Made by a program: the position numbers and the translations under genes | Shown: in pieces, positions 2,460 through 8,301 of the stretch | Layout of the letters: each line of letters starts with the position of its first letter | Position numbering within the stretch: the stretch's first letter is position 1 | Notes under the pieces: model-generated | The model's database searches: none | What the model was told of the DNA's origin: nothing | The model's input: the letters and a program-made list of their open reading frames with translations, nothing else | Origin: a virus | Direction: 5' to 3' (one strand) | Virus record (IMG/VR): IMGVR_UViG_3300037189_005825 | Location: 1-28,376 of that record | Length of the DNA stretch: 28,376 nucleotides

Positions 2460-3983
2460 ATGGCAGTTTATAACCGCCCAGGTATTTACGTAAGTGAACG
2501 CCTATTAACTGCACCTATTGCTGCAGTTGGTACTTCTACCGCAGCAGGAGCAGTCGCTGCTCCTTTTGCGAGTGGACCAACTACAACAACATTGGTGTCA
2601 TCTTGGTACGAGTTTTCCAAGATTTTTGGAGGCTACAACGCCTCTTTTCCAGCAACTTTTGAAGTTGCAGCGTTCTTCCAAAACGGTGGACGTGAGTTAT
2701 ATGTAAAGCGCATTATCGCAGCAGATGCAATTGCAGCAGTTGTTGCAATTGGTCGTGCTTCTGGAGTAGGAAGCACTATCGAAGTAACAGCAAAGAACAA
2801 GGGCGCAGATGGTAACAACCTACGTGTCCGTTTGACAGCAGGTAATGCTGGAGCAGGTTACTACGACTTTGCTGTATACCGAGAAGGTGTAGCAGGAACA
2901 GCCGCTGATAACACTAACGACGTTCTTCTTGAGTCATACGAAAACATTGTTACAAACAGTGCTTCTTCTACTGACTACATCATGACCGTTGTTAACATGG
3001 TGTCACAGTATGTAACAGTTAACGTTACAGACCTTGTGAATGCACCAAATGTGACATCAGTTTACCCACTTACAGGTGGTTCAAACGGTTCAGCAGTTGC
3101 AATAACAGATTATCAATCAGCAACCCAAGGCGTTGTTGCAGCGTTTAGCACTATCGACCGACCATTGGTTATTTTTATGCCAGCACTGGACGTTATCATC
3201 GGAGCAAACAACGCTAACACCTTCTATCTTGATGTAATTGGTTTTGCTGCAGCAGATGCAAAGCACTTCGTTGTAGCACAACCACAAGCAGACCGCACTG
3301 TTGCCCAGGCTCTTACAATGGCAACTGCAATTGCTGGCTCAAGCCATGCTGCTGTCTACTACCCTCACTACTTCATCACTGACCCAGTTGGTCGTTCCGC
3401 AAGTGCAATCCGTAAGATTGGACCTTCAGGAGCAGTTGCTGGTCTTTACATGAACACCGATGCTACAACTGGTCCTTTCAAGGCTCCAGCAGGTATTGGA
3501 ACAACTGTTCAAGGTGCTATTGCAGTAGAGAAGGTATTTACTTCAACAGAATTAGATAGCCTTAACGGTGCTTCTGCTCCAGTAAATGCTATTCGTCAGA
3601 TTCCAGGTGCAGGTATCTCCGTAATGGGTGCTCGTACTTTGAAGCAAGATGGAACAGCAAACAAGTATGTAAACATGCGTCGCTCACTTATTTACTTACG
3701 TAAGAAGATAAGCGACCTCACTCAATTTGCACTATTCGAGAATAACGATGAGAAGTTGTGGGAACGTATTGACGCAGTTCTCGTCTCATTCTTGAATGAA
3801 TACCGCAATCAAGGCGGTCTTCGTGGTGCAACTCCAGCAGACGCTTTCTTTGTAAAGTGCGATGCTGAAAATAACCCAGACAACCTGATTGCTCAAGGAC
3901 AAGTTAACATCGAAGTTGGAGTTGCTCTGCAATATCCAGCCGAGTTTGTAATCATCACCTTAAGCCAGAAGACAGTAAACTAA
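2460..3983 (+). CDS. contractile tail sheath protein
   Basis: A 507-residue protein that forms the sheath around the tail tube and contracts to drive the tube through the cell envelope. The N-terminus (YNRPGIYVSERLLTAPIAAV) is the usual start of the tail sheath family (PF04984). The C-terminus (NMRRSLIYLRKKISDLTQFA, then the FFVKCDAENNP segment and the final beta-strand region) is the conserved sheath core that links subunits. Its length is in the range of compact sheaths and shorter than T4 gp18 (659 residues). The start is supported by AGGAG at 2448-2452. The tube gene follows after 14 bases, the standard sheath-tube order. The family assignment is secure. Confidence 0.96.
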   Translation: MAVYNRPGIYVSERLLTAPIAAVGTSTAAGAVAAPFASGPTTTTLVSSWYEFSKIFGGYNASFPATFEVAAFFQNGGRELYVKRIIAADAIAAVVAIGRASGVGSTIEVTAKNKGADGNNLRVRLTAGNAGAGYYDFAVYREGVAGTAADNTNDVLLESYENIVTNSASSTDYIMTVVNMVSQYVTVNVTDLVNAPNVTSVYPLTGGSNGSAVAITDYQSATQGVVAAFSTIDRPLVIFMPALDVIIGANNANTFYLDVIGFAAADAKHFVVAQPQADRTVAQALTMATAIAGSSHAAVYYPHYFITDPVGRSASAIRKIGPSGAVAGLYMNTDATTGPFKAPAGIGTTVQGAIAVEKVFTSTELDSLNGASAPVNAIRQIPGAGISVMGARTLKQDGTANKYVNMRRSLIYLRKKISDLTQFALFENNDEKLWERIDAVLVSFLNEYRNQGGLRGATPADAFFVKCDAENNPDNLIAQGQVNIEVGVALQYPAEFVIITLSQKTVN

Positions 3984-3997
3984 GAAAGAAGGCATAA

Positions 3998-4657
3998 ATG
4001 GCTGACATCGTTTATCAGAATCGGTCGACTCTTGTAACCGACCCGATTCGCAATTTTAGGTTCCTTGTTTCGTTTGCTGCAACCGATACAACCAGTTCAT
4101 CTATAGGTGTTGCAACAGCAACCCTAGGATTTACTTCTGTATCAGGCTTGGCAGTGACAACAGACTCGATTCCTTACCGTGAAGGTGGATTCAACACCAC
4201 TGTTCACCAAATTCCAGGACAGACCTCATTCCAACCAATCACACTACAAAATGGCGTGGTTATTGGAAAGAGCCAGAAGTGGGACTGGATGCGTAATATG
4301 TTTGCAACCGTACAAGGCGGAGCACAACGAACACTTACAGCAGGATTCCGTTGCGATGTAACTATCAAAGTTCTCGCACACCCTGTCCCATTGCTAAGTG
4401 CAGCAGAAAAAGCAGGAACAGCAGATGTTGCAATGCAGTTCAAGGTGTATAACGCCTGGCCTACTGCTGTGGCATACTCTGACCTAAACGCTGGTGACAA
4501 CTCTCTATTCGTAGAGCAGATGACTCTAGTACACGAAGGTTTTGACGCTTCATGGGCTAAGTGGTCCGCTGATGGCAAGACATTCACACCTGCTGGCACA
4601 ATTGGTGCTGCAGGAGCAGCACCTGCTGCTGCTACTGGTGGAGCAACACCAGTCTAA
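3998..4657 (+). CDS. tail tube protein (T4 gp19-like)
   Basis: A 219-residue protein that polymerises into the inner tail tube. Family features are DPIRNFRFLVSF at residues 15-26, VSGLAVTTDSIPYREGG, then IPGQTSFQPITLQNGVV and SQKWDWMRNM. This is the pattern of the T4 gp19 tube family (PF06841): NFxF, GL/PYREGG, and Trp-rich helix after the long loop. The C-terminus ends in an Ala/Gly/Pro-rich tail (about the last 20 residues) that may be flexible. AGAAGG at 3985-3990 is the ribosome binding site. It lies between the sheath and the tail assembly chaperone, as expected. Confidence 0.93.
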   Translation: MADIVYQNRSTLVTDPIRNFRFLVSFAATDTTSSSIGVATATLGFTSVSGLAVTTDSIPYREGGFNTTVHQIPGQTSFQPITLQNGVVIGKSQKWDWMRNMFATVQGGAQRTLTAGFRCDVTIKVLAHPVPLLSAAEKAGTADVAMQFKVYNAWPTAVAYSDLNAGDNSLFVEQMTLVHEGFDASWAKWSADGKTFTPAGTIGAAGAAPAAATGGATPV

Positions 4658-4681: not shown

Positions 4682-5503
4682 TTGAGTACACAAACAGATA
4701 TAACTGTTAAAGGGTCTGAAAATCCAGAACTAATTAATAGCATGGTTGCACAGGCTTTGGCTAACGATAAAACGGAAGTCAAGCCAGTCACCATCATGCC
4801 TCCTTCTGACACAGTAGTGACCCTCCCTGGCGGATATTTAACATTCGCTGGGGAGGTTGTCAAAGAGGTAGAAGTACGTGAACTAAACGGTAAGGATGAA
4901 GAAGCAATTGCTCGTTCTACTAGCGTAGGAAAGGCACTGCTTCTAATCCTAAACCGTGGAGTAGTTCGTATTGGTGAAGAAAAAGCCACAGACTCCATGA
5001 TTGATTCGCTTCTTGCGGGTGACCGTGACTACCTAATGATTGCTATTTATAAGGCAACCTTTGGTAACGAGGCTATTCTTCAAGGAATTTGCGGGGAATG
5101 TAACGAGATTAAAGATGTCAAGATAAACCTTGACACAGACATCAAGGTTCGTCCTATGGCAAATGCTTTAGAGCGTAAATTTACTGTGGATTGCAAGGTA
5201 GGTCCTGTAGAGATTGCTCTTCCAACAGGGCATACTCAAAAGGATTTGGTCAACAACTCTGACAAGACTGTTGCTGAATTGACCACTATTTTGCTAGAAA
5301 ATTGTGTCAACACAATTGATGGCAATGATGTGCTTGGAAAAGCACAGGTTCAAAATCTCGGGCTCAGTGACCGTAAGGCTATTGCAGAAGAGATTAACAG
5401 ACGAAATTTTGGTCCACTATTCGATAATGTCGCAGTCACATGTCCCGACTGTGAGAGCGAGGTAATCGTTCCCATTAATCTGGGCACGTTATTTCGTATC
5501 TAG
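4682..5503 (+). CDS. tail assembly chaperone / T4 gp26-like protein, zero-frame product
   Basis: A 273-residue protein starting at TTG 4682, with TAGGAA upstream. It lies between tube and tape measure, the slot of tail assembly chaperones (lambda gpG/gpGT type), and resembles the gp26-like baseplate-hub/chaperone proteins of T4-type phages. It has two CxxC pairs, CGEC at 137-140 and CPDC at 254-257, able to make a four-Cys zinc site. The second pair ends only 14 residues before the frameshift region. An overlapping frame continues to 5642 (see next entry), so this is probably the short product of a frameshifted pair. Chaperone function is inferred from position and this arrangement; a structural hub role is the alternative. 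Confidence 0.78.
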   Translation: MSTQTDITVKGSENPELINSMVAQALANDKTEVKPVTIMPPSDTVVTLPGGYLTFAGEVVKEVEVRELNGKDEEAIARSTSVGKALLLILNRGVVRIGEEKATDSMIDSLLAGDRDYLMIAIYKATFGNEAILQGICGECNEIKDVKINLDTDIKVRPMANALERKFTVDCKVGPVEIALPTGHTQKDLVNNSDKTVAELTTILLENCVNTIDGNDVLGKAQVQNLGLSDRKAIAEEINRRNFGPLFDNVAVTCPDCESEVIVPINLGTLFRI

Positions 5504-5642
5504 TACAACCGACTATTCGTCTTTGTTGGCGGAGTATCTGGCACTGTCAGACCGTCATCAAGGATGGACACTTACTGAGATAAAGACGTTATCAGTAAGA
5601 GAACGTCGAAATTGGATTGAACTCGTTCGAGAAGGCTATTAG
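5496..5642 (+). CDS. frameshifted C-terminal extension of the tail assembly chaperone
   Basis: In the +1 frame relative to the preceding gene, codons run open from 5466 to TAG at 5640-5642 and encode SSTTDYSSLLAEYLALSDRH, then WTLTEIKTLSVRERRNWIEL. This is a protein-like sequence of 48 residues from base 5496. There is no ATG or good ribosome binding site; the only possible independent start is TTG 5523 or 5526. The frame fits a +1 (or -2) shift near the end of the zero frame. Candidate slip points are TTT-C at 5492-5495 (tRNA-Phe can re-pair from TTT to TTC) and CCC-A at 5471-5474. A fusion by TTT-C would be 319 residues. Frameshifting in this gene pair is widespread in tailed phages; the exact site here is inferred. 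Confidence 0.72.
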   Translation, partial: VSSTTDYSSLLAEYLALSDRHQGWTLTEIKTLSVRERRNWIELVREGY

Positions 5643-5652
5643 GAGATGACAA

Positions 5653-8301
5653 GTGGCAGGTGAAGTTAACGACTCGTTGGCGCAAACCAACAAAGAGTTA
5701 GACGACATTGTAAAAAAACTTGCTGGCATTGAAAAGTCACTTAAATCAATAGGTGGCGGTGCTAGTAAGGTTCCTGGTGCTGTCCGTGGGGCTACAAAAG
5801 GTGGTGGCGATAGAGGTATAACTGCTGGTTCAACTAGCATGATGCCTCAAATGGAGAAGGTTTCTTTCTCCGAAAATGTTGACACAGACATTGTTGGTCG
5901 CAGCAAAGAGACCTATAGCCGTCTCGGATTAGGAAAGTTCACCCCCAGCGACAGGATGCTTGGAGTTGCTCAAGGAGCAACGCAGATAGGCATGGGCCTT
6001 ATTGGTGGTGCGATGATGGGTTCCCCTAGCGCAAACTCAGTACTGTCAAGTTCTGCAAATTACTTTGGAGCATCTTTACGTTCAAGTGGTTTGGGCTATC
6101 AGCAAATTACTGCTATGACCATGAAAGGTCTTGGTAATTTAGGAATTACTGGCGAACAATCTCCAGGAGCAACTGCAGCAATGCTTGCTGCTCGTGGTGT
6201 TATGCCAGGGTCTTCTCAATACAACACCTTGCTTCGTGAAATTGGCGGTGCTGCTCGTGGCTATAACATGGCTAACGAGAATGCAGCCCTTGCTCTTTCG
6301 GGATTAACACAAGGCCCTATGAGTGCTCGTTTGTATGGCGCAGGTATTAGTACATATAACGCACAAACACAACAGTTCCGTGGTGGAACTGAGGTATTCC
6401 AACAAATTTATGACCGCATGACTATGGGTCGACCAAAAGCAACTTTGCAACAAACTATGAACAGTATTCAAGGAGGGTTTTTACAGCAAACCGCTTCAGA
6501 TTTAGGTATGTCAGAAGACCAAAAACAGTTGTTCTACCAGTTTGCAGTTCAAAAGGCTGGCGGAAAAGAATCAGACTTAGCAAAACTAGGTGTAGGAGAT
6601 AACCCCACAACTTCTGCAAAGCGAATTGTTCAATCTGACGTAGAAACGTTGAATTCTTTTGTAAAACCTGTTCTTAAGGGGATGGAAAATGCTGCTGATA
6701 TTGTAGAGGGAGCAAATAGGCAACTTCAAAGGTTTGCAGACCAACTTGGTTACGTAAGTGGCTTAATGGGAGGTCTTGGACAAAGCCGTGTAGGTGGCGG
6801 TTTAGGGGCTATGGTTGGAAGTTTTATAGGCGGTGCTGGGACCATTCTTTCAGGATTAGGTTTAAAAAGTTTGTTCTCAAAAGGCAAAGGTGCACCAGCA
6901 GCGACTGGTCCCGCTGCATCAAATGTTGCTAAAGCAAGTAAATTAACAGGGTTTTTAAAGTTCTTAAAGTTTTCTCCTTTAATTGGCGTAGGTGCTGGTG
7001 GTTCTTTCACAGTTGACCCAGAAACTGGGGAAAAAACACCAAGCAAATCTGGATTGCAAGAACTTATGGAGTGGCTAGAAAGTCGCGGTGGTTCAGGTGG
7101 AAGCACCAATACTCCTATGGGTGGTTCATTCGGCGGTGGAACACCAGGTGGCTCTAATGCAATTGCTCCGATTATGGGTGGAATTGTAGGAACTCCTTAT
7201 GGCGCAAAAGGAAAGATGTGGAAGGGCTCTCACACAGGTGATGACTACCCAACTCCAATTGGTACACCTGTAGTTGCAGCCATGGATGGAATTGTTTATA
7301 ACGATAACCCTGGTCAGGCATACGGAAAAACCGTACAGATTGACCACGGCAATGGGTATCAAACTTTGTACGGTCACTTATCAGAGGTCATGGCATCTGT
7401 TGGTCAGTCAGTTAAAAAGGGACAGACAATTGGTAAATCAGGTGACACAGGAAACGTAGATGGTCCTCACTTACACTTTGAAGTACGTCGCGGTAAGAAC
7501 AACCCTGTAAATCCAAAAGAACTTGTAGGCAGTTCTTCTTTAGGAAACGGCCTTGTAGGTGGAGCGTCTTTAAGCGTAGAAACAGAAGGGCTCAAGAGTT
7601 CTGAAGTACAACTATCTAAGTTATTTGGCTCAGGTTCAACTAACGCTCTTTTAAAAGCAGGTGTAACAACTGGCGGTTCTTCCTCAGTTGGCTCTGCAAG
7701 TGCTGGAGGAACATCAAGGGTTATTCTCGGCACAGGTAGCGAAAAAGAGTGGGCTACAGGTCTACTACAAAAAATGGGTGCACCTGTTAATGAAAGTTCT
7801 ATTGCTGCTCTTACAACGTGGATGCGTCATGAAGGCGGTCACTGGAAAAATAGCGCAAGTTACAACCCGCTAAATACAACTCTTGACATGAGTAACAATG
7901 AGTCAATGAACAGCGTGGGCGTTAAACGCTACAAGTCTTGGGAAGAAGGTTACGCTGCAACTATCGGTACTCTTACTGGAAATAAAGCAGATGAGCGTGG
8001 ATACACAGCAATTGTAAATGCTTTGAAGAGTGGTGCATCTACTGAATCTATTCTTGGAGCAATTAACAACTCTGCTTGGATGACGGGAAAAACAGGAAAA
8101 AACCCTTACAAATTCCAAGGTGGACCCGCAAGTCTTAGTGTTGCAACTCCGTCAGTAAACAGCGGTGGTGGCAGTGGTGCAACTGTCATTATTAATGCCA
8201 CATTTGGAAAAGCGACAGAGGCAGAGGCATACCAACTTGTTCGACTTGTTAAGTCAGAACTCGAAAAAGACTCTTCTCTTAGAACGATGGGTAGGTCATA
8301 A
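5653..8301 (+). CDS. tape measure protein with M23 peptidase and lysozyme-like domains
   Basis: An 882-residue protein starting at GTG 5653, with AGGAG at 5641-5645 overlapping the chaperone-extension stop. Residues 1-400 are helical and Gly/Ala/Gln-rich with hydrophobic stretches near 103-122 and 369-405, as in tape measures. Residues 505-625 are an M23/LytM domain: H527 and D531 (HTGDD), H575 (YGHLS) and the H606-L-H608 motif (GPHLHFEVR), a complete zinc endopeptidase set. Residues 692-820 look lysozyme-like, with E727 in MRHEGGHW as a candidate catalytic acid. Gly/Ser-rich linkers separate the domains. It would set tail length and cut the cell wall during entry. The position after the chaperone supports tape measure; the C-terminal domain family is less certain. 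Confidence 0.9.

Follow-up and report, generated by a model that had tools for sequence, protein, structure and literature searches.

According to a review, the G-T frameshift of the tail assembly chaperones is widely conserved "except T4" (PMC5009743). T4 gp26 and gp51 are both tabulated as hub assembly chaperones, gp51 being absent from the final particle (PMC3004832), and a cyanophage survey describes the gp51 of cyanophages and a marine vibriophage as being without its first ~200 residues (PMC3037559). Also known already are a +1 shift in a tail chaperone gene (HSTV-2), +1 sites of the UUU_C type (YopN-TyeA, PA-X, amalgaviruses), and the stimulation of +1 shifts by hairpins upstream: a hairpin placed comparably to the one described below stimulates +1 shifting in yeast (PMC3639245), and one lying against the E site does so in a bacterial 70S system (PMC6321510). 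Here, we describe a locus for which sequence comparison strongly supports a programmed +1 shift at TTT-C in a gene of the tail-assembly-chaperone type.

The window (the whole 28,376-nucleotide stretch of viral DNA that was analysed) is part of a contractile-tailed phage and includes these tail genes:

2460-3983, + strand: tail sheath protein (PHROG 23, E = 6.4e-43)
3998-4657, + strand: tail tube protein, T4 gp19 type (Pfam PF06841, E = 2.1e-26)
4682-5503, + strand: zero-frame gene, T4 gp26/gp51-type chaperone of 273 aa (PF12322)
5653-8301, + strand: tape measure protein with an M23 peptidase domain (Pfam PF01551, E = 4.6e-32; PHROG tape measure matches)

The gene at 4682-5503, which starts with TTG and stops with TAG at 5501-5503, sits between the tail tube and tape measure genes, as in the lambda G/GT type. 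Its 273-residue product matches PF12322 (T4_baseplate) at E = 3.3e-12 and 47 bits, above the Pfam gathering score of 24.5, as well as PHROG 150, named baseplate hub. PF12322 is the family of T4 gp26 and gp51 (the T4 proteins themselves were checked), and by sequence the gene is of the tail-assembly-chaperone type, more precisely of the T4 gp26/gp51 type. The protein contains two CxxC pairs, CGEC and CPDC; the initial annotation had it ending right after the second, which is indeed present, although 16 residues still separate CPDC from the C-terminus. A fold predicted for the zero-frame product alone (mean pLDDT 85, good confidence) finds the gp26-type family when compared with viral models. 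In a Foldseek comparison with the PDB, the HK97 tail assembly chaperone 2ob9 was returned with a probability of 0.69 at a weak E of 1.4 (TM 0.55 of the target over 82 columns), the other PDB matches shown having probabilities of ≤0.13; no PDB match to the predicted fold was significant by E-value, and PDB sequence searches gave no convincing relative. The resemblance to the HK97 chaperone is no more than suggestive. Database names that say baseplate hub, together with the placing of gp26 in the hub by T4 genetics (PMC3004832), would fit a product that is a structural hub subunit rather than a chaperone, with the frameshift giving two virion proteins. We regard this as unlikely, given the tabulation of gp26 and gp51 as hub assembly chaperones cited above and the fact that a frameshifted pair ahead of the tape measure gene is the pattern of tail assembly chaperones (PMC5009743).

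The gap before the tape measure gene is filled by an open +1 frame, which the initial annotation had noticed and described as having neither ATG nor ribosome binding site. Both observations hold: the frame is open from 5466 to a stop at 5640-5642 (58 codons), encodes the two peptides quoted there, and contains no ATG or GTG, and no Shine-Dalgarno sequence was found ahead of the TTG codons at 5523 and 5526, its only possible starts. The elements of the putative shift region are as follows:

5467-5488, + strand: hairpin 5' of the shift site (arms 5467-5474 and 5481-5488; covariation)
5489-5491, + strand: E-site codon TTA, directly 3' of the hairpin arm ([TC]TN in 60 of 63 non-redundant relatives, TTT not counted)
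5492-5495, + strand: candidate +1 shift site TTT_C (zero-frame TTT 5492-5494, C 5495)
5496-5642, + strand: +1-frame extension, 48 codons and a stop (translation with TTTC read as F; predicted fusion of 319 aa)

An open +1 frame is by itself weak evidence, because the +2 frame is likewise open, for 34 codons. What places the +1 frame far beyond chance is its conservation. Of the closest 80 relatives in viral contigs, 77 were examined, and all 76 that were long enough to read have the tail in the +1 frame, with TTT at the site and then C. Further scans brought the collection to 129 close records, or 63 once near-duplicates were removed, and in these the shift codon is TTT in 63/63 and the next base C in 63/63. 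The tail is under purifying selection (dN/dS ~0.13, an approximate value, as synonymous sites are near saturation), which extends to the eight codons ahead of the position where some relatives have ATG. The predicted fusion joint reads ..INLGTLF-VSSTTDY.., and the tail is helical, with a W/RER-W pattern; to DUF6760 (PF20546) it shows a resemblance only, scoring 15.7 bits (E = 0.016), below the gathering cut-off of 27. A frame break in any single record could be a sequencing or assembly error, or mark a decayed gene, yet the 129 close records share the arrangement, as do sequenced phage isolates and bacterial prophages, and the tail is under selection; on the strength of these relatives, we consider this reading refuted, with a negligible residual probability.

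The other Phe codons of the same genes are TTT in 237 cases and TTC in 116, and C follows TTT in only 6 of the 237; part of this scarcity is a general codon-pair effect, because TTT_C is under-used in the window's other genes too (C after TTT in 17/185, vs 21/62 after TTC). Actinobacterial prophages of 64-68% GC retain TTT at the site though the surrounding genes use TTC, the Actinomadura prophage region having 152 TTC and 10 TTT among its Phe codons and nevertheless TTT at the shift site. The conserved C does not merely reflect the coding of Arg or Gln either, because two prophages have TTT CTC here. The same myovirus tail type is found in Actinomadura, Nonomuraea, Streptomyces and Saccharothrix genomes (L096-L099, L267, L268). 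The Actinomadura locus is a prophage, because terminase and portal genes adjoin it (confirmed for Actinomadura only); bacterial, non-phage use was looked for via one Pfam terminase family, with nothing from that family found. Where the window's tape measure protein carries an M23 peptidase, the counterparts in actinobacterial prophages have NlpC/P60, one of them also SLT.

The position of the shift is tightly bounded. In the close relatives, the zero-frame stop lies 2 or 3 codons past TTT, and upstream of TTT a stop in the +1 frame is met at 3 codons in 29/63 and within 9 codons in 51/63; because of these nearby upstream stops, the shift has to occur at or adjoining TTT, and between them and the zero-frame stop the only conserved element is TTT_C. 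Of the two slip points proposed in the initial annotation, the alignment with related phages thus bears out TTT-C at 5492-5495. The other, CCC-A at 5471-5474, is excluded in the close relatives, many of which have +1 stops between CCC-A and TTT; this sequence is instead part of the 5' arm of the hairpin. The annotation had left the direction as +1 or -2, and it is the +1 alternative that the comparison supports. A -2 shift at the same place, as in phage Mu, would end in the identical frame, and tail chaperones with -2 shifts have been described (PMC5009743); in most relatives, however, it would put tRNA-Phe on TGT or TAT (TTG or TTA precede TTT), a variable pairing with a second-position mismatch, whereas the +1 codon TTC is perfect in 63/63. 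Because of this difference in pairing, we regard a -2 shift as extremely improbable. As to other causes or stimulators, a slow A site is not evident because the window uses CGT often (18 per 1000), transcriptional slippage was rejected as the T run is just three bases long in most relatives, and downstream RNA structure as a stimulator gave no strong signal in the +1 class (mean z -0.8 to -1.0).

Directly upstream of the site, the sequence can form a hairpin of up to 8 pairs, the core of which is the pairing of 5471-5474 (CCCA) with 5481-5484 (TGGG). Among relatives of the window type, a Pro codon and the Leu codon three codons downstream of it covary at their third bases, in the combinations CCT+TTA, CCG+CTC, CCC+CTG or TTG, and CCA+CTT. 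This closing pair has the highest mutual information among all column pairs (1.42 bits, the next being 0.75) and is Watson-Crick in 50/54, against a maximum of 32 in 20,000 shuffles. On a tree built without these codons, both partners change on 7 branches, out of 9 and 10 changes, respectively (p = 1.7e-7), and for the stem as a whole neither the number of paired cells nor the covariation score was reached in any of 500 shuffles. The 3' arm ends at 5488, with the E-site codon alone separating the stem from TTT, and the stem, which directly adjoins that codon, is kept by compensatory changes at synonymous positions. Some relatives have only part of the hairpin (its outer pairs are formed in 62%-84%), and folding of the 37-nt stretch gives a modest z-score (mean -0.79). 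By analogy with the hairpins mentioned at the outset, it probably favours the forward shift, and it appears to be a natural example of a mechanism known from reporter constructs.

Taken together, it is very likely, on the comparative evidence, that the gene yields two proteins by a hairpin-assisted +1 shift at TTT (5492-5494). Most ribosomes would terminate at the TAG at 5501 and release the 273-aa chaperone, while a minority would shift +1 with TTT in the P site, tRNA-Phe (anticodon GAA) re-pairing from TTT to the overlapping TTC at 5493-5495 and translation resuming at GTA to give the 319-aa fusion with the helical tail. The hairpin at 5467-5488 would refold behind the ribosome, where it abuts the E-site codon. 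If lambda gpG/gpGT is a guide, the tape measure protein would be bound by both products but linked to the tail tube or hub by the long form alone, and T4 gp26 and gp51 would be duplicated counterparts that do without the frameshift. The comparison itself provides the frame, the site, the hairpin and the homologies; the occurrence and efficiency of the shift, the action of the hairpin and the roles of the two forms are what we infer from it. The tail might alternatively be a separate small protein, made by re-initiation after the TAG at 5501 at a weak start (TTG 5523 or 5526, where some relatives have ATG). An ATG does occur 11 codons past the shift codon in 20/63 relatives, and the tails of KVP40 and cyanophage Bellamy are annotated as separate genes, but in 12/63 non-redundant relatives the frame contains none of ATG, GTG and TTG ahead of the W motif, the codons ahead of the start position are under purifying selection, the frame relation is constant throughout the close family, and re-initiation leaves unexplained both the invariant TTT_C and the U_UUU_UUN heptamer of the -1 class described below. 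No consistent ATG with a ribosome binding site was found for the second frame in the relatives, and we consider re-initiation very unlikely.

The +1 arrangement extends to more distant phages. The Streptomyces phages pSt2308, GiJojo, BRock and LuckySocke have CTG TTT C(G/A)N GAA CTC TRA followed by a +1 tail, and a +1 tail is also present in Streptococcus phage GXN1 (site TTC TTT CGT) and in Bacillus phage SP-15 (TTT TTT CAC). Among SP-15-like phages, which likewise retain the tail in the +1 frame, TTT_C is found in 21 of 27 non-redundant loci; the six exceptions have TTT_T (L089, L175) or belong to a subclade (L163, L166, L168, L172) in which the Phe codon (TTC, or TTT before A) is not then followed by C and a conserved CCC_AGT comes after it. 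In this subclade, to judge from the sequences, the +1 slip site may have moved from TTT_C to CCC_A. The SP-15-like class gave no sign of an upstream hairpin. Alishewanella phage Slicko01 (L266, 2387-3208) has a gp26-type gene whose +1 frame holds a tail-like sequence, but TTT_C is absent there.

In another set of relatives, from KVP40, cyanophages and pelagiphages, the gp26-type gene ends with a tail in the -1 frame, and U_UUU_UUN is present in 39/39 non-redundant loci. This is the classical -1 heptamer. Downstream folding is stronger in this class (mean z -1.83), and Pseudomonas phage Paride and Agrobacterium phage Atu_ph07 show the same -1 arrangement at U_UUU_UUN (L092, L093, L176-L258, L264 and L265 for all these relatives together). 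In the database records examined, the -1 tail is annotated as a separate gene (KVP40, Bellamy) or is left out of the gene. The metagenomic huge-phage record LR756511 (L090, ~3220-3500) has a tail-like -1 frame after an FFF stretch and, in addition, a long zero-frame extension. The -1 and +1 tails are homologous (profile comparison, E = 6e-7), and the -1 tails match the C-terminus of T4 gp51 (E = 2e-10), a resemblance that the KVP40 record itself mentions. T4 gp26 (L087, 6803-8229, which covers T4 genes 26 and 51) ends where the zero-frame product ends (..KEFFELL), and no tail was found in any frame after gene 26. T4 gp51, a second PF12322 protein encoded by a divergently placed gene, carries the tail in frame, and the fusion profile aligns with it along its length, through the joint and including the tail (E = 1e-5). 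Because the -1 tails are homologous and the whole fusion can be aligned in frame with gp51, T4 gp26 and gp51 look like a duplicated G/GT pair. The simplest reading of these sequence comparisons is that each short gp51 of cyanophages and vibriophages is the frameshift tail of a gp26, and that gene duplication took the place of the frameshift in T4-type phages.

More broadly, we think it probable that PF12322 is an ancient family of frameshifted tail chaperones whose shift, centred on one or two shared Phe codons, has switched direction (UUU_C, preceded by a hairpin, for +1; U_UUU_UUN, followed by structure, for -1; in one clade possibly CCC_A), that T4 lost the shift through duplication into gp26 (G) and gp51 (GT), and that the upstream hairpin acts as a natural +1 stimulator. 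If true, this could explain why T4 appeared to be without the frameshift common to most long-tailed phages, and would give a role to gp51, so far unexplained, and to the short "gp51" of cyanophages. Homologous genes in which +1 and -1 shifts evolved at the same codons would constitute a test system, and a fusion protein missing from the annotation of Streptomyces, cyanobacterial and SP-15-like phages could be named. In the literature searched, which covers few subscription journals such that earlier recognition is possible, we found no report of the frameshift or the hairpin, and within the same limited scope none of a direction switch in one family or of gp26/gp51 as a G/GT pair.

Compared with known systems, the locus is like lambda gpG/gpGT (and also Mu, with a -2 shift, and HSTV-2, with a probable +1 shift) in that the gene precedes the tape measure gene; as in lambda, the shift lies near the 3' end and is here proposed to add a C-terminal domain to a minority of the molecules. 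It differs from the lambda G/GT type in its family (PF12322, ~270 aa with two CxxC pairs), in shifting +1 at UUU_C, and in having the hairpin upstream. It shares PF12322, and the alignment of the fusion along gp51, with T4 gp26 and gp51, but T4, unlike the window phage, has two divergently placed genes with the gp51 tail in frame. Both the zero-frame protein and the tail are homologous to gp26 and "short gp51" of KVP40, cyanophages and pelagiphages, where, in contrast, the tail follows U_UUU_UUN in the -1 frame. Influenza PA-X and the plant amalgaviruses (UUU_CGN) use the same tetranucleotide, with tRNA-Phe moving from UUU to UUC (PMC5052127); the present family differs in that bacterial ribosomes are involved, in that the A-site codon may also be CAR or CTN, and in its covarying hairpin directly upstream, whereas for PA-X no stimulator is evident (PMC5009743). 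Finally, Yersinia YopN-TyeA (UUU_Y) and Listeria phage PSA (CCC_U) are, like the present case, +1 shifts on bacterial ribosomes at re-pairing P-site codons (PMC5009743), although they concern other genes and functions, the PSA shifts being in the capsid and major tail genes.
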